A stretch of 35,359 nucleotides of DNA from a virus: positions 1 to 35,359 of IMG/VR virus record IMGVR_UViG_3300042691_027378; one strand, given 5' to 3'. Every line of letters begins with the position of its first letter. The stretch's first letter is position 1. The notes below the pieces were generated by a model that saw only the letters and a program-made list of their open reading frames with translations, did no database searches and had not been told where the DNA came from. Shown here in pieces: positions 23,015 through 32,858 of the stretch. The position numbers and the translations under genes were made by a program.

Positions 23015-23143
23015 ATGAAAGGCTTGGTAATTGCATTTATTTTAGGAATGGTTGTGGCAACTGTTGGCTTGTCCGGCATTGCTCGCATCTTTGACAAAGG
23101 CATTGAAACCGTTAAAACACACAGTCAGGAGTTGGCAAAATGA
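23015..23143 (+). CDS. Small single-span membrane protein
   Basis: 42 residues from the ATG at 23015, preceded by an AGAGG ribosome site five bases upstream. One hydrophobic segment spans about residues 3-20 (LVIAFILGMVVATVG), followed by a short polar tail. It begins the unit expressed from the sigma70 promoter at 22955 and overlaps the lipoprotein gene (ATGA, 23140-23143). I recall similar tiny membrane proteins in marine T4-like phages. No function is known, and an envelope role with the two lipoprotein-like proteins that follow is likely. Confidence 0.6.
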   Translation: MKGLVIAFILGMVVATVGLSGIARIFDKGIETVKTHSQELAK

Positions 23144-23760
23144 AAAAGTTTATTCTTATTCCCATCGTTGCATCTTTGGCTGCATGTTCTACAGTCAAGA
23201 CAGTGAACCCCGATGCGGCAATTCGCAATCAAAAGTTATCTACTAACTTTACAGACGACAAAGTTAAAATTGAAACTGACTGCGTTTGGTACAAGCCTTG
23301 GAAAAGCGAATGCGATATTGTAGCTATCGAAGCTACTGCATCTACTTGGACCAATGGCGGAACTAGAGTTCAAGCGCAATCTGCCCGAGAAGTAGCTGAG
23401 ATGCAAGCTTTGGCTAAACTGGCTAGATTTATTAAAGAAGATGTCACTACTACTAGGGTAGTCGAAACTGTGGCCAAGCATATTGAAAAAGCCCAGGATC
23501 GAATCGCCAAAGGTGATTCTGGTGATTCTAGTATGACTGATAAAGAAGCCAAGGCTACTAATATCTCTACTAGAGAAAATGCCAACGATACTGCTCGAAC
23601 AGTTACTTCTACAGTCAAGACTAACTCGCAAGCAATTTTGCGAGGTTACTATGTCAAGGATAGTGGCCAGTCTGGTGATCAAGAAGTATATGTAACTGTT
23701 CGATGGGATCGCAATAGTGCCAGAGCTGCCGAAACACTTGGCAAACGCTTTAGTCGCTAA
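23140..23760 (+). CDS. Lipoprotein of the LPP20-like type
   Basis: 206 residues. A signal peptide with a lipobox, LAAC at 13-16, predicts lipid attachment at C16 and export through the Sec pathway and lipoprotein sorting. The mature part has an Ala-rich helix (SAREVAEMQALAKLARFI), reminiscent of LPP20 domains, and a Ser/Asp/Thr-rich linker (KGDSGDSSMTDKEAKATN). Composition differs from the neighbours: in the three 60-base rows I counted (23161, 23341, 23461), 29-32 bases are G or C, against 21 of 60 in a row at 22141. This hints at acquisition from a bacterial source. It overlaps the small membrane-protein gene by 4 nt. An outer-membrane role in the infected cell is inferred. Confidence 0.7.
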   Translation: MKKFILIPIVASLAACSTVKTVNPDAAIRNQKLSTNFTDDKVKIETDCVWYKPWKSECDIVAIEATASTWTNGGTRVQAQSAREVAEMQALAKLARFIKEDVTTTRVVETVAKHIEKAQDRIAKGDSGDSSMTDKEAKATNISTRENANDTARTVTSTVKTNSQAILRGYYVKDSGQSGDQEVYVTVRWDRNSARAAETLGKRFSR

Positions 23761-23762
23761 TC

Positions 23763-24728
23763 ATGACATTCTTGTCATTGGTACTCTGTCTTTTAATGGA
23801 CAGTTGTTTGCCGCGGATCCCGGATGCCCCTATCCGAGTTACAGCGGTAGGGGAAACTTATGAACAGGCTAGAGATAATGCTTACAGAGAAGCTGCCGAA
23901 ACTTTTGTAGGGGCGGTAGTTGTTTCTGACAAAGAAGCCCGTAATCAAAAACTAGTTAAAGATGATATACTAGTTTACAGCTCGGCCTATGTAGATAAGT
24001 TTAAATTAATCAGCCAAGAAGAACGGAATGGCAAAGTACATATTGTTATTGATGTTTGGCTGAGTCCTAGTAAAATTGCTAATCGAATTCTATATGTTAT
24101 TACAAATGACACTGAATTCGATGGCGCAAGGATGACTGAACAATATCGAACATACATTAAGACCAAAACTCAAGGCGACAAGCTCATTCAAAAACTGCTG
24201 GAGCCTTATCCGCAAAATGCCTTTAATATCGAAAAGGTATCACAGGAGTTTAAAGTCAATGAAGTTCGTGTGCCTTACCTGCACATTGTTTACAGTTTAA
24301 AATGGAACAAAGGATATCTCACAGCATTAGAGGAAGGTATCAATGCAGTCAGTGACGGCAAGGTTGCTGAACGCAACTCAGTATCTAGAATCATAGTAGA
24401 ACAAAAGCGAGGTTGGACAGTTATTGGTAGTATGCGGCCATATTACTTTAATGACATAAACACCACAAATTTGATCTATCAAAAATTTGAATCTAAAAAA
24501 TTAGTTGTTCGTCTTACATTGATGAATAATAATACTCCAATTTATACAACCTGTAGTAAAGTGTTTCCCAACAGGCTTTATACAGTTGGATCTACTAATT
24601 TAGATATTAATGGTCTACAAGTATTTTACTCTGAATTTAAAATCAGCGCACCACAGAGAAATACATTTGATAATGTTACCAATGTAGTTTTATCCATTGA
24701 TACTGAAGATAGGTGTGCGTTTAGATAA
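23763..24728 (+). CDS. Envelope protein with FlgT N-terminal-like domain
   Basis: 321 residues. A short hydrophobic N-terminus (MTFLSLVLCLLMDSC) could be a signal, and C15 could be a lipid-attachment site, though the lipobox LMDSC is atypical. Residues about 24-115 (VTAVGETYEQARDNAYREAA with DILVYSSAYVDKFKLISQEE and VHIVIDVWLS) match the pattern of the FlgT N-terminal domain or LPP20-related proteins, known from flagellar outer-membrane rings. The C-terminal half is not recognised. It lies 2 nt after the lipoprotein gene and ends 8 nt before the radical SAM gene. A periplasmic or outer-membrane role is likely. A flagellar role is not supported by any neighbour. Confidence 0.55.
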   Translation: MTFLSLVLCLLMDSCLPRIPDAPIRVTAVGETYEQARDNAYREAAETFVGAVVVSDKEARNQKLVKDDILVYSSAYVDKFKLISQEERNGKVHIVIDVWLSPSKIANRILYVITNDTEFDGARMTEQYRTYIKTKTQGDKLIQKLLEPYPQNAFNIEKVSQEFKVNEVRVPYLHIVYSLKWNKGYLTALEEGINAVSDGKVAERNSVSRIIVEQKRGWTVIGSMRPYYFNDINTTNLIYQKFESKKLVVRLTLMNNNTPIYTTCSKVFPNRLYTVGSTNLDINGLQVFYSEFKISAPQRNTFDNVTNVVLSIDTEDRCAFR

Positions 24729-25633: not shown

Positions 25634-26483
25634 TTTAGACGTTTCTAAATACAAAAGGTTTTTTGCCTTTGGTTGTAGTTTTACAAACTACATTTGGCCA
25701 ACATGGGCTGACATTATTGCACAGGATATTGAAGTTTATCAGAATTGGGGACAAATAGGTTCAGGCAATCATTATATCTTTAATTCTGTATTAGAGTGCG
25801 ATGCTAGAAATAACTTTACCAAAGACGATCTAGTTATAATCATGTGGTCGTCTATTGAAAGAGAAGATCGCTATTCTAACGGCAAGTGGTTAACTGCAAT
25901 TACAGAAAAAGATAAAAAAAGTTTATATGGCCGACAATGGTTTAAAAGTTACGGGGAAGACTATCGTAGTTGTTTAATACGAGACATGGCATTTATAAAG
26001 TCAACACAGACATTCCTCTCTGCTAAAAACTGCGATTGGGCAAATTTTAGTATGTACTCTATATGTAACATGGATGAGGAGAAACTGTTACAAGATGGGT
26101 ATGCTGACGACAAAGATGTAGATTTGCTTATACAGAGATATTTAAAGCTAAACAGAGATCTCTGTGACGGCAAAGAAATTACTGAACCCTATGTCTGTGA
26201 TCCTGATGTGCTTGCTCTTTATAAAGATGCATATTCACAGATAAAATATTCGGTGCTAGATATAGTACGACAAGGACATTTTTTAAAAGACAATCTAGCT
26301 AATTTTGGTGATGGGCATCCTACGCCAATTGAACATTTAAACTATTTAGATACTGTGTTGCCTAATAACTTGAGTCTAAAGGCAAAGCAGTTTGCAGTAG
26401 AATGGGAATCAGTAGTTCAGTCTATTAAAGAACGTGATGTTATGCCGCAGAAGTTTGAAAGACCTATAATTAAAAGATTATAA
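25620..26483 (+). CDS. SGNH-like hydrolase, larger form
   Basis: 287 residues, longer than the 212-residue forms. Block I is AFGCSFTNY with S20 as the expected nucleophile; NWGQIGSGN (42-50) stands at the block II/III position; and GDGHPTPIEHLNYL near 235-248 supplies the His and Asp positions (DGHP). A middle insert of about 80 residues separates these blocks. It overlaps the radical SAM gene by 14 nt and converges with the radical SAM gene at 26478 with a 6-nt overlap. An esterase or acyltransferase activity on a surface polymer fits the family. The substrate cannot be read. Confidence 0.68.
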   Translation: MNLANLDVSKYKRFFAFGCSFTNYIWPTWADIIAQDIEVYQNWGQIGSGNHYIFNSVLECDARNNFTKDDLVIIMWSSIEREDRYSNGKWLTAITEKDKKSLYGRQWFKSYGEDYRSCLIRDMAFIKSTQTFLSAKNCDWANFSMYSICNMDEEKLLQDGYADDKDVDLLIQRYLKLNRDLCDGKEITEPYVCDPDVLALYKDAYSQIKYSVLDIVRQGHFLKDNLANFGDGHPTPIEHLNYLDTVLPNNLSLKAKQFAVEWESVVQSIKERDVMPQKFERPIIKRL

Positions 26484-27860
26484 CAAATGCGATAGTTCTG
26501 GAAATACTTTTTTAAATTCACTGCCTCTTACAGCATCTATATTAAAGATGTATTCCTTAAAAGCAGTTAACTGATCTGAATGATCTTCACTGTCCATAAA
26601 ATCTAAAACTGCCTGCCAGCGTTTCCAACCGTAGGGATTAAGTTTCCAGTAGTCTTCATCTTGCCTATAGTTTTTATACAGCCAAGTTGCTAGTTCTGCA
26701 AATTTCTGTCTTACCTCTGCTTTATCTTCTTCTGGTAAACATTTTATACTTAAAAATGTAGGAATATACAATAGGTGCATGTTTACAATTCCGCCACCTG
26801 CTTGTATTCCACCGACAGTATTTTCTAAATTAACTTTCTTAAAGTTTTGTGTAATCTTCCATTTGGCAAAATCTGCCAAGTGTTTAATGTTTAGTATTTG
26901 TATTGCAGTAGCAATACTAACTTGTATGTTATCCGGAGTGTTATCTAACTTGCGTAAATTCTTTTCTATAGTGGCCCAGTCGCTAGGATAGCGAATGTAA
27001 TAGTTACGGTCGCCTATAGCATCAACGCTAAAGCCAACTTTAACTTTTTTAAATTGTTTCCATAAATCAATGATTTCGTCATCTATTAATAATCCGTTTG
27101 TATTGTAGCGTACAAGTATCTTGTCTGCGTATCCTTGACGTATAATTTCTTCAAGGAATAATCTATGCTCTCGGATCATTAAAGGCTCACCGCCTGCAAA
27201 GTATACCTGCTTTAGGTTAGGGATCTGTGCATACATCTCTTTCCAGAAGTCTGGATTCTCATGCCAAAAGTTATTAAATTCTTTTCGGTCCCATTGCATC
27301 TGTTCTTTAAGTACAGTTGATTTAAACAACGGATATATTTTTTTATGATCAGCTACCCACTGACTGCTATCGTGTGGGCTACACATAACACACTTAAGAT
27401 TACAAGTGTGTCCTAATCTTAAATCTAGATAAACAAGTTTATCTGGAACTGTGCCATCTTCTTCTGTTTGTGCAATAAGTTCTGCAACATCGATACCTTC
27501 TTCAATCCAAGAACCAGTCTCCCAAATACGTTTACTAGCCACACCTTGGGATTCTTCTCCTATGCACTTACTACAACTAGAAGGGATTTTTCCCTCTAGC
27601 ATAGTTAAACGTACATCCTTCATATATTCATTATTCCACGCACTCATTGGAGTTTCACGACCAAAGTTTGCTGGCTGACCTTTTTCATTCTTAACAAGGC
27701 CTATTGTGTGATTTTCACCTGCACCACTGGCGTTAGCACCACAGCACAATCTCATATCACCATTGGGGCGTGTGGCAAAATGTATCCACGGCAATATGCA
27801 GAAAGTTTTACTTCCTGATACTGTTTCAATTTTATCTTGCCAAAGTTTAATTTTATTCAT
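26478..27860 (-). CDS. Radical SAM protein with N-terminal Twitch-like Cys cluster, long form
   Basis: 460 residues from the ATG at 27860, chosen because it overlaps the upstream gene by 8 nt in the usual style. A GTG at 27875 is also possible. N-terminal cysteines are C21 (TFCILPWIHFAT), C39-C40 (RLCC), and C96 and C99 (CSKC). The core motif is C153-x3-C157-x2-C160 (CNLKCVMC), and AGGEPLMIREH places GGEP at 223-226. The middle insert and the N-terminal order resemble the 20819 protein. It is the last gene of the minus-strand unit that comes in from the right edge. It shares no precursor peptide within sight. Confidence 0.86.
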   Translation of the reverse strand: MNKIKLWQDKIETVSGSKTFCILPWIHFATRPNGDMRLCCGANASGAGENHTIGLVKNEKGQPANFGRETPMSAWNNEYMKDVRLTMLEGKIPSSCSKCIGEESQGVASKRIWETGSWIEEGIDVAELIAQTEEDGTVPDKLVYLDLRLGHTCNLKCVMCSPHDSSQWVADHKKIYPLFKSTVLKEQMQWDRKEFNNFWHENPDFWKEMYAQIPNLKQVYFAGGEPLMIREHRLFLEEIIRQGYADKILVRYNTNGLLIDDEIIDLWKQFKKVKVGFSVDAIGDRNYYIRYPSDWATIEKNLRKLDNTPDNIQVSIATAIQILNIKHLADFAKWKITQNFKKVNLENTVGGIQAGGGIVNMHLLYIPTFLSIKCLPEEDKAEVRQKFAELATWLYKNYRQDEDYWKLNPYGWKRWQAVLDFMDSEDHSDQLTAFKEYIFNIDAVRGSEFKKVFPELSHLL

Positions 27861-28893
27861 TGCAGTTTTTAGCACAAGCCCAGGGTTTGTTTGGGCCTGT
27901 AGTTATTTCATTAAGATCAGACCAAACACTGTCTGTAATTGCATTGTTATTTAAATTAAAAATATCTAAACTTTTAAATTTATTTTTAGTATCTTCAACC
28001 ATTTTATTTCTTAAACTATGTATGGTAATTTTTTCTTCGAGAGGTTGTTCCAACCAATCACTGCCTACCCAACAACAGGGCAATACATTACCTCTACTGT
28101 CAATGTATAATTCTTTATTGTTTATACATCTAGGTTTTACTTTGGCATTAGAAACGTGTGATTCCCATGATTTGAGATTGGCTGCTACTTCTTCTAATTT
28201 AATTACAGCTACTTTTTTAAAACGTTCTGTGATAGCAGGCTTAAGACTGTATTCATAGTTGCCATTTTTATCCTCAACATTAAACTTCTCCATGTCGTAG
28301 AACCTAGCTGTAGACTTGAAGTTAACTTTACCAAAACCTAAAGCTAACATTTCTTTTTCAAATTGATCTGCTTCAAGTTCGTTGTGTTCAAAAATTAAAC
28401 AGTCAATGGTAGCATATCCTCCGGCATTTATAAATGCCTTTGCATTGTCTATAATTTTGTGCCAGTCTGTTCCACGTCGATATAACACATGGCTGTCTGC
28501 AAATCCATCTATGCCAAATGTTACTTCGTGATTATCTTTCAGCGCCTTTGCTAGGTTAGCCCACCATGTGGTAGATCTAGCACTGCCATTTGTATGTATG
28601 CCCAGTCTTACTTGGGGATTTGCATTACGCACGTATTCAAAAATTTCTAAACAATCTTGTGCTATAATAGGATCGCCGTAATTGCCACAGGCATAGAAGT
28701 TAGTAAGTTTAGACAGAAAGTCTAAAGAGAACCAACTTTTAAATTGATCTAGAGTAATTTCATTTTTTCCAACAAAGGGACGTTCTTTCCCTCCGTTATA
28801 GTTCCTAGCACACATAGGACAACTAGCTTGACATTTGTCTGTAAGCTCAACGTGTACTTGTTCGATATTATCTAAATGATTTAAGCTGGGCAT
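27853..28893 (-). CDS. Radical SAM/SPASM-like protein with a GNYGDP variant
   Basis: 346 residues. The core motif is C21-x3-C25-x2-C28 (CQASCPMC), but the GGEP-type loop reads CGNYGDPIIAQD (G70-P75). That variant keeps the G..GDP shape seen in a minority of radical SAM proteins. C256 (PRCINNKELYIDSRGN) and C273-C274 (LPCCW), plus two Cys in the terminal ACAKNCNE, form a SPASM-like C-terminal cluster region. It overlaps the small helical protein gene by 13 nt and the 26478 gene by 8 nt. The SPASM layout is typical of peptide-modifying enzymes, so the small protein beside it is worth testing as a substrate. Confidence 0.82.
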   Translation of the reverse strand: MPSLNHLDNIEQVHVELTDKCQASCPMCARNYNGGKERPFVGKNEITLDQFKSWFSLDFLSKLTNFYACGNYGDPIIAQDCLEIFEYVRNANPQVRLGIHTNGSARSTTWWANLAKALKDNHEVTFGIDGFADSHVLYRRGTDWHKIIDNAKAFINAGGYATIDCLIFEHNELEADQFEKEMLALGFGKVNFKSTARFYDMEKFNVEDKNGNYEYSLKPAITERFKKVAVIKLEEVAANLKSWESHVSNAKVKPRCINNKELYIDSRGNVLPCCWVGSDWLEQPLEEKITIHSLRNKMVEDTKNKFKSLDIFNLNNNAITDSVWSDLNEITTGPNKPWACAKNCNE

Positions 28894-29066
28894 TTCTCAA
28901 GAATAGCAAACACATCTTCGCCAAGCTCTTCGACTATGAGTTGATAGGCTTTGGGATTTTCTTTAATTTTTAACAGAGACTTGTACAGCACAATATTTTG
29001 CTGTTGAATTTCCATAAACTTCTTGATATAAAACTGGTCTTGGAAAACTGGATTTTCTTCTGACAT
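28881..29066 (-). CDS. Small helical protein of unknown function
   Basis: 61 residues from the ATG at 29066 (TAATG overlap of 1 nt with the gene before it), preceded by an AGGAG ribosome site (CACCAAGGAGATTTTA). The sequence is helix-rich (YIKKFMEIQQQNIVLYK, AYQLIVEELGEDVFAIL) and ends ILEKCPA. There is no signal or membrane segment. It is embedded between a SPASM-type radical SAM gene and a prolyl-hydroxylase-like gene. No family recognised. It could be a precursor or carrier peptide, an adaptor, or an ordinary small phage protein. Confidence 0.55.
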   Translation of the reverse strand: MSEENPVFQDQFYIKKFMEIQQQNIVLYKSLLKIKENPKAYQLIVEELGEDVFAILEKCPA

Positions 29067-29680
29067 TAAAATCTCCTTGGTGAATAACCAACACGTGGTC
29101 TGTCTGCAAAGAAACAACTTGCGATCCATTTACAGCCTTTGGTTATTAATGTGCTTTCGTGTATTGTTGACCAGTTTGTTTCTTCGTCATAATTTTGTTG
29201 AAAATATAAAAATGAACCTGCTTTAGGTTTTATAGAAACATTATATTTTGGAAACAAAGTTTCGCCACCAGTCATGTCGTCATTAAAATAAAAAATGCCT
29301 GTACCCACTCTGTCACCACCATATTTGTAATAGTTAATCTGTCTTGGATCATAGGGATAATCGTGATGTAGATCTAAATAACGTCCTTCAGGATAGTTAT
29401 AGATATCAATTGCTTCAATATGATTGAAGGGAATCTTGGCACATTTGACAATAGCACTGGCTAGCTTATCATAGTGGTGCGGATCCATACCCCAACTTAT
29501 ACCCCTATTCTCAACTAGTTCGGTAACCTGTGCATATGACTCTTGTCTACTCTGCTTTCCACTATTTGGGTTCATAGTATCTTTAGTGTGCTTATCAATG
29601 ATTTCTTGACAGAGCTCTAAAGGAATAGCATCTTCAAATACAGATATTCTAGGTGCTTCTAAATAAACAATTTCTTTCAT
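29066..29680 (-). CDS. Prolyl 4-hydroxylase-like 2OG-Fe(II) oxygenase
   Basis: 204 residues, complete for the P4H alpha-like catalytic domain. H105-H-D107 in YLDLHHDYPY, GTGIFYFNDDMTGGETLFP (127-145), and the distal H174 with K184 in STIHESTLITKGCKWIA match the P4H pattern, in which a Lys anchors 2-oxoglutarate. It belongs to a different subgroup from the AspH-like oxygenases of the window. It overlaps the CSD-GPx fusion by 4 nt and the 61-residue gene by 1 nt. The family hydroxylates peptidyl proline or other small substrates. Nothing here fixes the target. Confidence 0.84.
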   Translation of the reverse strand: MKEIVYLEAPRISVFEDAIPLELCQEIIDKHTKDTMNPNSGKQSRQESYAQVTELVENRGISWGMDPHHYDKLASAIVKCAKIPFNHIEAIDIYNYPEGRYLDLHHDYPYDPRQINYYKYGGDRVGTGIFYFNDDMTGGETLFPKYNVSIKPKAGSFLYFQQNYDEETNWSTIHESTLITKGCKWIASCFFADRPRVGYSPRRF

Positions 29681-30405
29681 AGTGTGTCTTCTAGTAATTT
29701 TTCTATTTCTACAGTTAAGTCCAATGGATCGGTCATATGATCAAAACTTAATACTGTTGATCCTACACAATTAATGAGATACTTATGAAAGTTCCACTGT
29801 GGTGTTTGTCCTGTTTTTTCAGCTAACAGTTTATAAAGAGAATGTACTTGGTTATTTGTGTCTTCTATTTGCTGACCTGGCTGTGTACTGTCTTTGTTAA
29901 CGCAGTTAATCTTTTCCATGACTTTGAAAGTCACACCGTAATTGACTTTACAAAAAGACTCAATCTCATTATTGGCCAATGGCTCTTGACCTGCAAAGTT
30001 ATTTGTTGGAAATGCTATTACTGCTAGGCCTTTGTCTTTGTAGAGTTGATGTAGTTTTTCTAAACTTTCGTACTGCGGAGTTAGCCCGCATTTACTTGCT
30101 GTGTTAACCACTAACACTACCTGTCCAAGGTACTGAGAGAAATGAATTCTTTCTCCTTTGAGACTGATCATTTCATGATCATAAAAACTTAAATCTTGTG
30201 TTTCAGTCACTTCAATATCCTCTGCTTCTAATCCCAACGACCCATCGACTCTGTTAAATTTAACTTTTTGAAATTCAAATAACGTTTGAGGCTCAGTCTT
30301 TACTTTCCATTTTTCTGCAAAGACCTGTTTCCCATCAATGTCAGATATAATAAATCCAATGCCTTTAGCATCGTTAAACCATTTTACTGTTCCGCTGTCT
30401 ATCAT
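29677..30405 (-). CDS. Cold-shock domain fused to a cysteine glutathione peroxidase
   Basis: 242 residues in two parts. Residues about 4-64 form a cold-shock domain: SGTVKWFNDAKGIGFI covers the RNP1-type motif, but the RNP2 region reads VFAEKWKV where VFVHFSAI is usual, so nucleic-acid binding may be weakened. Residues about 72-236 are a glutathione peroxidase: NTASKCGLTPQYESL with peroxidatic C106, Q140 in FAGQEP, and W204/N205 in WNFHKYLI. These complete the Cys-Gln-Trp-Asn tetrad. C152 (ESFCKVNYGVTF) is at the resolving position of thioredoxin-type GPx. One open frame, with no frameshift. I know both families only as separate proteins. The gene lies 3 nt downstream of the tandem oxygenases. 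A role in oxidative stress during infection is inferred. Confidence 0.85.
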   Translation of the reverse strand: MIDSGTVKWFNDAKGIGFIISDIDGKQVFAEKWKVKTEPQTLFEFQKVKFNRVDGSLGLEAEDIEVTETQDLSFYDHEMISLKGERIHFSQYLGQVVLVVNTASKCGLTPQYESLEKLHQLYKDKGLAVIAFPTNNFAGQEPLANNEIESFCKVNYGVTFKVMEKINCVNKDSTQPGQQIEDTNNQVHSLYKLLAEKTGQTPQWNFHKYLINCVGSTVLSFDHMTDPLDLTVEIEKLLEDTL

Positions 30406-30408
30406 AAA

Positions 30409-30969
30409 TCACCAAAAGTTAAAAAGATATTTAGGTCCAAGTCCAGAATTAACACCAGCATGCCAGTAGCGTCTACTGTCCCATCTATAAGTAGCACCCT
30501 GCGGCTGATTATAAAAACACTGATTATCTACTATTACTGCATGTCCAAATGCTGGTTGTGTAATGTGGCAATGAAATCTTATCTTGTCTGGTTCTAACAT
30601 AAACTGTGCTTCATTGTCGTGAACGTCCCAATGCAATGGAGCCATCTTGCCTGGGTGTATTCTACTGATCCATGCAGTATTCCATGTCTTAACACCTACG
30701 AAGTCGGCAAACTTTTCAACGACTTCCATAGAAAAATTCTTTTCAGGTAAAAACATATCCCACTCAACAGTTCCGCCATCCTTGAATAACTTGTATCCTG
30801 CACCTTCCCATGCATCTAGGACAGCATCTAGTCCAGGAACATTGTCCCCTCTCTTATGACTAGGCCCTACATACGCAGGTTCTTGATCTTTTATCTGATC
30901 AATAACTGCATCCCAGTCAATAATATCACCAAGAATTTTACCACAATTTCCAATATACTCTACAGTCAT
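30409..30969 (-). CDS. 2OG-oxygenase-like protein, tandem copy 1
   Basis: 186 residues. H113-W-D115 in APLHWDVHD and distal H170 in RYWHAGVNSGLGPK. N174 is conserved, and K180 occupies the usual Arg position at +10. It opens with a segment (IIDWDAVIDQIKDQ) shared with the next two proteins, showing common origin. The 3' gene is the CSD-GPx fusion, with a 3-nt gap, and it overlaps the next copy by 4 nt. It is the most divergent of the three, for example in FHCHITQPAFG where the others carry FMQEQ-PGH. The metal site is intact, so activity is possible with a lysine-bound cosubstrate. Confidence 0.74.
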   Translation of the reverse strand: MTVEYIGNCGKILGDIIDWDAVIDQIKDQEPAYVGPSHKRGDNVPGLDAVLDAWEGAGYKLFKDGGTVEWDMFLPEKNFSMEVVEKFADFVGVKTWNTAWISRIHPGKMAPLHWDVHDNEAQFMLEPDKIRFHCHITQPAFGHAVIVDNQCFYNQPQGATYRWDSRRYWHAGVNSGLGPKYLFNFW

Positions 30970-31589
30970 TTTTTGTATCCTAAAAAATGAAACAAATAAT
31001 AAGTTTCAAATCCGCTGTTGGCGGCAGCATGCCAGTTCTTTCTATGTTTCCACTGATAGATACTGTGTTTCTTTTCATTATAAAAACAATGTTCATCTAG
31101 CATAAGAAAGTGTCCGGGCTGTTGCTCTTGCATAAAGCAAACATAACGGACGAGATTTAAATCCTTCCACTCTTTTTCTTTGTCTTCTAAATCCCAATGG
31201 TATGGAACTGTTACCCCTGGCTGTACTACACTTACAAATACACGCAAAGGTTCGGCATCAACAATTTTAGCAAACTGATTTTGTACCTCGACATCAAAAT
31301 GTTCGCCTGGATAGTAGTCCATCCATACAATATCTTGTATTCTATAATTTGCCTTACGCCATATACCTATTAGATCATAAAAGCAATCGCCTAAATCATC
31401 ATCATCTTCTGGAGCAGAGTCGTTGGTAAAGAATGTAAACGGACGACCTTCTCTTACAGGTACGTCTCCTTCGGCTATCATAACACTATTATTGTCTCCA
31501 TTAGTAGCACCAGTAATTTGAAGAATCACTTTATCCCAGTCAATTACTCCATCAGTAGATCCAGCGTAAGAGTGTACATTTTTATTCAT
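30966..31589 (-). CDS. 2OG-oxygenase-like protein, tandem copy 2
   Basis: 207 residues. VIDWDKVILQITG at the N-terminus, H131-W-D133 in VPYHWDLED, and distal H187 in KNWHAAANSGFETYY, with N191. Y197 stands at the position of the 2OG-binding Arg. YVCFMQEQQPGHFLMLDE and YYLFHFLGYKK are nearly shared with copy 3. An acidic loop (SAPEDDDDLGD, 58-68) lies upstream of the fold. The gene overlaps copies 1 and 3 by 4 nt each, so the array is probably translated as one coupled block. It is closely related to copy 3, a likely recent duplication. Confidence 0.75.
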   Translation of the reverse strand: MNKNVHSYAGSTDGVIDWDKVILQITGATNGDNNSVMIAEGDVPVREGRPFTFFTNDSAPEDDDDLGDCFYDLIGIWRKANYRIQDIVWMDYYPGEHFDVEVQNQFAKIVDAEPLRVFVSVVQPGVTVPYHWDLEDKEKEWKDLNLVRYVCFMQEQQPGHFLMLDEHCFYNEKKHSIYQWKHRKNWHAAANSGFETYYLFHFLGYKK

Positions 31590-32167
31590 GATTTATACCC
31601 TAAATAATGGAATAGATAATAAGGTTTAAATCCGCAGTTTGCACCGGCATGCCAATTCTTTCTGCTGTGCCATTGGTAGATAGAATGTTTAGGCATACCG
31701 TACATAATTTCCTCGTCCAGCATAAACAAATGTCCTGGCTCTTGTTCCTGCATAAAGCAAACATATCTCACCATCTCTCCTAGCTTGACCCATTCTGCTT
31801 CAAAATCTTCAATGTCCCAGTGATAAGGAACCATCTTACCTGGCCATACTTCGCTGACAAATACACGCAGTGGTTTTGCCCCTACAAGCTCTTCAAACTT
31901 TTCTTGTATTGAATAATCAAAATGTTTACCGGGGTAATAATCATACCATTCAATTTGTTTTAAATCGTAGCCTGCTTTTTCCCAATTGCCAATAACGTCT
32001 CTGTAAGACTGCAATAGTTCTTGATCACCGGCTGCTTCTGCTTCGGACCTATCAACTACAGAGGTCACAGTATTATGATCAGGATCAGCAGACTGCTGAC
32101 AGGCTAGTATAACTTCGTCCCAATTTATAATACCCTGTGTTGAGGTTATAAACTTATGTCTGCTCAT
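31586..32167 (-). CDS. 2OG-oxygenase-like protein, tandem copy 3
   Basis: 193 residues from the ATG at 32167; an earlier in-frame codon at 32221 would reach further into the upstream gene. H116-W-D118 in VPYHWDIED and distal H173 in KNWHAGANCGFKPYY, with N177. Y183 replaces the +10 Arg, exactly as in copy 2. IINWDEVILACQQ at 13-25 matches the opening of copies 1 and 2. It overlaps the kinase-fold gene by 14 nt and copy 2 by 4 nt. The shared Tyr suggests a changed cosubstrate pocket inherited by copies 2 and 3 before they diverged. Confidence 0.76.
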   Translation of the reverse strand: MSRHKFITSTQGIINWDEVILACQQSADPDHNTVTSVVDRSEAEAAGDQELLQSYRDVIGNWEKAGYDLKQIEWYDYYPGKHFDYSIQEKFEELVGAKPLRVFVSEVWPGKMVPYHWDIEDFEAEWVKLGEMVRYVCFMQEQEPGHLFMLDEEIMYGMPKHSIYQWHSRKNWHAGANCGFKPYYLFHYLGYKS

Positions 32168-32858
32168 GTTTAAAAACCTCTTTATATACAAATTCCATGT
32201 TATGCTTTCCCCACATAACATGCTGTTGCATCGAATTACGGAACATTATTTCTAAATTATAATTACCATCACTATTTGTACCACCTGTTTCGTCTAGTCG
32301 AAACCTAGCAGTTTGATGTATAATCGAATCCATTACGATTCCTGGAATATAAGGATCTGCTACAGGCACACAACCGTACCAATCAATTGATCGCATATTT
32401 GCGTTGTCATCTATATAATGACAATGAGGATACATTGTTAATTTGTAGACCCCTTTACTGTATAGGTCTACCATGATGTTTTTAATTTGATCTTGCCAGT
32501 CGGGGCAATACTCGTGTAAATCTCTACCGCTATAGATAATTTCGTTACAGGTTTCTTTATACCATTTTAGAAATATTTTTTTTGAACTATAATCGATGTC
32601 TATAATTTCAGGAGCATAGGATGTGCCTTGAAATTTTAAAATATTATTAACTTCGTTTTCCCAAAACCAATTAACTGTATGTTCTGTATATAGGGGCCTA
32701 TTAGATGTTTCAGCTCTTTGGTACTTGTTATTGACATCGTAGTTTTTACAAAATGTTTTGCCGTCAGGACTTATTAGAGGCTCGTAAGTTTGTTGAGCCA
32801 TACATCGTCGACCGTCCTGATCTAATTTGTAAAAACGAAACCAATTATCTACATTCAT
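32154..32858 (-). CDS. Kinase-fold (APH/RIO-like) protein
   Basis: 234 residues, paralog of the protein at 15810. It retains K38 in KTFCKNYD, acidic residues in FWENEVNNI (65-73), and D159 in RSIDWYG at the position of the metal-binding Asp of kinases. The HxD catalytic loop is not recognisable: MYPHCHYIDD stands in its place. Lys and Asp are thus present here but missing in the paralog (Q38, N158). The gene overlaps the oxygenase copy 3 by 14 nt and lies 1 nt downstream of the epimerase gene. A sugar or lipid kinase is possible if the unusual loop works, otherwise a nucleotide-binding regulator. Family assignment is tentative. Confidence 0.5.
   Translation of the reverse strand: MNVDNWFRFYKLDQDGRRCMAQQTYEPLISPDGKTFCKNYDVNNKYQRAETSNRPLYTEHTVNWFWENEVNNILKFQGTSYAPEIIDIDYSSKKIFLKWYKETCNEIIYSGRDLHEYCPDWQDQIKNIMVDLYSKGVYKLTMYPHCHYIDDNANMRSIDWYGCVPVADPYIPGIVMDSIIHQTARFRLDETGGTNSDGNYNLEIMFRNSMQQHVMWGKHNMEFVYKEVFKHEQT

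Follow-up and report, generated by a model that had tools for sequence, protein, structure and literature searches.

The window, that is, the whole stretch of DNA analysed here (the 35,359-base IMG/VR record G000), carries on its minus strand a gene at 29677..30405 for a 242-aa protein in which a cold-shock domain (CSD; residues 1-67, 30205..30405, minus strand) is joined to a glutathione peroxidase domain (GPx; residues 74-242, 29680..30186, minus strand). An earlier note made from the DNA sequence had described this fusion as a single frame at exactly these coordinates, with no strand given, and its description holds. Pfam matches residues 4-65 to CSD (6.8e-11) and residues 74-173 to GSHPx (1.4e-33), with scores above the gathering cut-off of 27 bits in each case (42.3 bits for PF00313 and 115 bits for PF00255). 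In PHROGs, the GPx part corresponds to phrog_5295 (unknown function) and the CSD to phrog_729 (cold shock protein). The fusion is further defined by residues that are invariant among its relatives and by structure prediction, a step the earlier note had proposed: AlphaFold2, applied to six fusion proteins, gives a mean pLDDT of 85.7 and a pTM of 0.81.

The stop codon of the CSD-GPx gene shares an ATGA with the start codon of a gene for a 204-aa prolyl-4-hydroxylase-type 2OG-Fe(II) oxygenase (P4H; 29066..29680, minus strand, PF13640 at 4.4e-9). The same four-base overlap is found in the relatives L002 and L016; in L015 the overlap is 14 bases long, and L005-L014 have an epimerase gene between the two. 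Next to the P4H gene is one for a small helical-looking protein of 82 aa (28881..29129, minus strand) that matches no Pfam family above the cut-off, followed by two radical SAM genes (26478..28893, minus strand, PF04055) that belong to the syntenic block of several relatives. Upstream are four neighbors conserved by synteny (30409-30969, 30966-31589, 31586-32221 and 32154-32858, together 30409..32858, minus strand), none of them matching a Pfam family at E 0.01; in relatives, three of these four again stand next to CSD-P4H and CSD-GPx genes. The window as a whole (1-35359) is a dense island of radical SAM/SPASM genes, Asp_Arg_Hydrox-like (2OG-oxygenase-like) genes and epimerases and also holds a UDP-glucose dehydrogenase and an FkbM methyltransferase. 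Two lipoprotein-like genes on the plus strand (23140-24728) are unusual for a phage island; the second has a weak match to LPP20 (0.0071, below the cut-off).

The earlier note had raised a frameshift or chimera at the junction as a danger to the fusion. Uninterrupted, full-length CSD-GPx frames are present in other viral contigs: in L001 (100% identity to the window), L002-L004 (90%), L005-L014 (54-57%, a group that also has L178 and L179 as partial members) and L015 and L016 (46%). Because relatives are conserved in independent assemblies at 100, 90, 55 and 46% identity, a chimera, a frameshift or a chance open reading frame is already refuted, and the probability left to these explanations is negligible. 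The G+C content is uniform across the junction, at 35.8% for the CSD and 35.9% for the GPx against 35.6% for the window, and comparison of the window with L002 gives a dN/dS of 0.04 in the CSD and of 0.06 in the GPx. On this comparison, both domains are under purifying selection.

The GPx domain has the complete Cys/Gln/Trp/Asn catalytic tetrad of glutathione peroxidases. C106, Q140, W204, N205 and a second cysteine, C152, stand at the positions given in the earlier note and are invariant in all six distinct fusion proteins. The catalytic residue is encoded by a cysteine codon, TGC. In the alignment with yeast HYR1, C152 falls at the latter's second cysteine ('QFCQLNYGVTF'), the resolving cysteine Cys82. 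By sequence, the domain fits a thioredoxin-type 2-Cys GPx, and its chemistry is very likely that of a thioredoxin-type peroxidase. The GPx part of the model matches solved GPx structures, among them 2v1m (VIA Z 24.3, 157 residues, rmsd 1.5 A) and yeast HYR1 3cmi (Z 20.7).

The CSD retains one side of the surface of cold-shock proteins (Csps) and has lost the other. Thirty-nine CSDs were scored at the positions that contact nucleic acid in Bacillus subtilis CspB. On the RNP1 side, W8, F/Y9, K13 and F17 are retained in nearly all CSDs and K7 in 28 of the 39; the window CSD has an RNP1 of KGIGFI, in which F15 is replaced by I. On the RNP2 side, H29 is replaced in all 39 (by E in 28), F30 is K or R in 32 and another residue in the rest, a W takes the place of S31 in 21, and every one has F38 deleted. 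With H29, F30 and F38 lost, these domains lack the intact RNP1 and RNP2 aromatic surface that marks a nucleic-acid-binding Csp. The RNP2 site is more variable in GPx-fused than in P4H-fused CSDs, and the CSD of L016 has strongly diverged. The earlier note called the RNP2 region degraded. The motif (VFAEKW) has indeed been replaced, but random decay is not supported: because the change is common to the CSDs of CSD-P4H proteins and the domain is under purifying selection, the CSD looks like a specialised domain whose altered RNP2 is a family feature. The suggestion that the CSD is an oxidation-responsive element fared less well. Five of the six distinct GPx-linked CSDs contain no cysteine, which makes a disulphide relay onto the CSD unlikely, and this candidate was rejected since no CSD cysteine is conserved.

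At other loci, the same CSD is fused directly to a homologue of the P4H gene at 29066-29680. The set of 44 distinct P4H sequences comprises 32 CSD-P4H proteins, five linked to CSD-GPx and seven stand-alone proteins, all 44 with the HxD..H..K motif for metal and 2OG, and the family profile finds the bacterial BaP4H 3itq at 8.4e-23. The CSD is therefore fused to P4H in 32 of 37 distinct family members, and the other five adjoin CSD-GPx. When all loci were searched with our own profiles, every P4H of at least about 62% identity was either a CSD-P4H or lay in a locus with CSD-GPx upstream; with the same kind of profile, the CSD was absent from the distant P4Hs of about 51% identity (L323-L328 and L330-L332). 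A CSD scan, viewed at its best 80 matches, returned mostly contigs in which CSD-P4H or CSD-GPx had been found before; of the others, 13 were inspected and proved to be ordinary stand-alone Csps. Judged by this distribution, the CSD belongs primarily to the neighboring P4H, a connection that the earlier note did not make, and represents a module that can be reused within a phage enzyme system. The model of one CSD-P4H protein (L017; pLDDT 80.7, pTM 0.69) matches CspA 1mjc with its CSD (Z 14.0, 67 residues, rmsd 1.2) and, at Z 19-20, P4Hs of algal and Bacillus origin. In L271-L276 and L284, the two domains of CSD-P4H are separated by about 20 additional residues, and one CSD-P4H phage contig also has a stand-alone canonical-looking cold-shock protein (G010:C1:147160-147351, 1.5e-30).

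The 82-aa protein adds a third component. Its C-terminal ~60 aa reappear as the last domain of CSD-P4H in L297 and in L302-L321 other than L319 and L320, where the small domain has a gene of its own. Homologues of the 82-aa gene adjoin nearly all CSD-P4H and CSD-GPx loci with flanks long enough, and none was found in the loci of stand-alone P4Hs. Because some clades have the triple fusion, CSD, P4H and the small domain can be seen as spread across one, two or three genes, which suggests, by the usual fusion argument, that the three work together.

The fusion of a CSD to GPx was sought elsewhere. No bacterial CSD-GPx fusion was present among the best 80 matches when the genomes of 84,980 species were scanned, or among matches at E <= 1e-40 in 398 genomes of one phylum. 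In cultured phages, tblastn found no place spanning both CSD and GPx. The literature search yielded no paper that mentions both domains together with fusion and phage, and papers pairing cold shock domain with prolyl 4-hydroxylase were, judged by title, unrelated. In a Terriglobus MAG (G029:C75:4545-6075), separate GPx and CSD genes lie ~0.8 kb apart on the same strand, unfused. The earlier note knew both folds only as separate proteins, and no CSD-GPx architecture was found in the phage, bacterial (sampled) and viral-structure collections searched. In all of these collections, the CSD-GPx/CSD-P4H enzyme system was found nowhere outside uncultured phages.

The assignment of the gene to phages follows from its relatives. 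T4 gp23 (capsid) and gp20 (portal) are present in the 281,658-base contig G005, which holds a CSD-GPx relative with similar gene order (L008), as well as in G016, G018, G020, G021 and G023, all of which carry CSD-P4H. Some large T4-like phages, as identified by these two genes, carry CSD-GPx, and the phage origin assumed in the earlier note is borne out. Within the window no structural gene was recognised, and T4 gp23 and gp20 are both missing from the 50.6-kb contig that contains its sequence; the window itself is therefore assigned to phages by its IMG/VR label and by its relatives. The CSD-GPx phages are presumably aquatic, judged by IMG sample numbers and by the freshwater-phage literature.

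In the P4H tree rooted on the distant CSD-less P4Hs, CSD-P4H proteins are basal, with moderate support for the basal split (84/90). The P4Hs linked to CSD-GPx are nested in three places, and a single clade for them is rejected (p-AU 4e-6). All six GPx sequences from phages group together as a single clade (100/100) against a bacterial GPx sample that was pattern-selected only. The CSDs of both fusion types form one clade against canonical Csps (100/97), and a single clade for the GPx-linked CSDs is not rejected (p 0.37). All six CSD-GPx records contain PF00255, whereas the search of 15 further phage records, 14 of them with CSD-P4H, gave no match. The simplest reading of these trees is that CSD-P4H is ancestral and that a single GPx insertion between CSD and P4H was followed by exchange among phages. 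The reverse order, in which CSD-GPx followed by P4H is ancestral and CSD-P4H arose by repeated loss of GPx, could account for CSD-GPx-linked P4Hs in three tree places when GPx is one clade; we consider it improbable, since GPx would have to be removed several times by near-exact deletions, each fusing CSD and P4H in frame, while CSD-P4H lies at the base of the tree and greatly outnumbers the other arrangement, and a single origin followed by exchange between phages is the simpler account.

The explanation that we favor, and hold to be somewhat probable, is that the protein is a functional 2-Cys GPx-type thiol peroxidase mounted on the specialised CSD of a phage P4H module, with GPx inserted and the CSD used for docking. 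What the sequences show in its favor are the domains with their active-site residues, a CSD common to both fusion types, overlapping genes, a small domain that accompanies them, and three placements of CSD-GPx-linked P4Hs in the P4H tree. The epimerase gene between CSD-GPx and P4H in L005-L014, the strong divergence of the L016 CSD and the moderate support at the base of the P4H tree count against it. The module would consist of CSD, P4H and the small helical domain, the CSD probably having begun as the N-terminal domain of P4H. Entry of GPx between CSD and P4H would have left separate, overlapping CSD-GPx and P4H genes, so that their translation may be coupled. Our best guess is that the CSD is a docking domain common to GPx and P4H, which would bring either enzyme onto a common partner or site (a protein complex or RNA). 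There, a peroxidase activity, as we infer it, would remove peroxide next to oxygen-using Fe(II) enzymes and so protect the oxygenase. CSD-GPx exposes a wider conserved phage module of CSD, P4H and small domain.

Alternatively, the CSD may be a true RNA or ribosome tether, in which case P4H would hydroxylate a translation factor such as EF-Tu and GPx would protect or tune it. Among the solved structures nearest to the CSD-P4H model are BaP4H 5v7y, whose title names EF-Tu modification, and 4iw3, a Pseudomonas P4H in complex with EF-Tu, and a Pseudomonas PHD hydroxylates EF-Tu (PMC4682802); since related P4Hs modify EF-Tu, a link of the phage P4H module to translation is possible. The retained RNP1-side residues would also suit a tether. 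However, the RNP2 face is lost in all CSDs, and an algal P4H with another substrate matches the model about equally well, so this alternative appears unlikely. A joint function might also be absent, GPx being a general stress-defence gene that, on insertion, chanced to capture the CSD upstream of it, and the CSD a passive leftover or solubility tag. Freshwater phages are reported to carry GPx and other genes for defence against reactive oxygen species (ROS) as an aid against oxidative stress (PMC6802176), and the greater variability of RNP2 in GPx-fused CSDs is what such a leftover might show; on the other hand, the CSD is present in every GPx lineage found and has the low dN/dS given above, and the idea is about as doubtful as the tether. 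Slightly less likely than either is a translation-targeting oxygenase complex of T4-like phages, in which a P4H steered by the re-engineered CSD would act on EF-Tu or the ribosome and, in some lineages, a GPx inserted into the module would keep it active or make it redox-responsive. The earlier note had proposed that a peroxidase coupled to an RNA-binding domain could link redox state to translation. Should P4H act on the translation machinery, phages could modify that machinery by hydroxylation.

CSD-GPx and its partners can be compared with several known systems. The phage protein resembles the 2-Cys GPxs HYR1/Gpx3 (3cmi), poplar GPX5 (2p5q) and Schistosoma GPx (2v1m) in fold, in tetrad and in the second cysteine, placed as in HYR1, but those enzymes have no CSD whereas the phage protein has an N-terminal OB-fold domain. 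Freshwater phages also carry genes for GPx and ROS defence (PMC6802176), and BFVD contains 'BtuE' proteins of uncultured Caudovirales; these are phage-borne like CSD-GPx, but none of the BFVD matches listed spans both CSD and GPx. The bacterial Csps CspA and CspB have the same OB fold and RNP1 strand as the phage CSD, in which RNP2 is replaced and F38 deleted and which is fused to an enzyme in every clade member found. The P4Hs that act on EF-Tu (BaP4H 5v7y and Pseudomonas PPHD 4iw3) share the fold and the HxD..H..K motif of the predicted phage P4H, which differs from them in being fused to, or paired with, a CSD.
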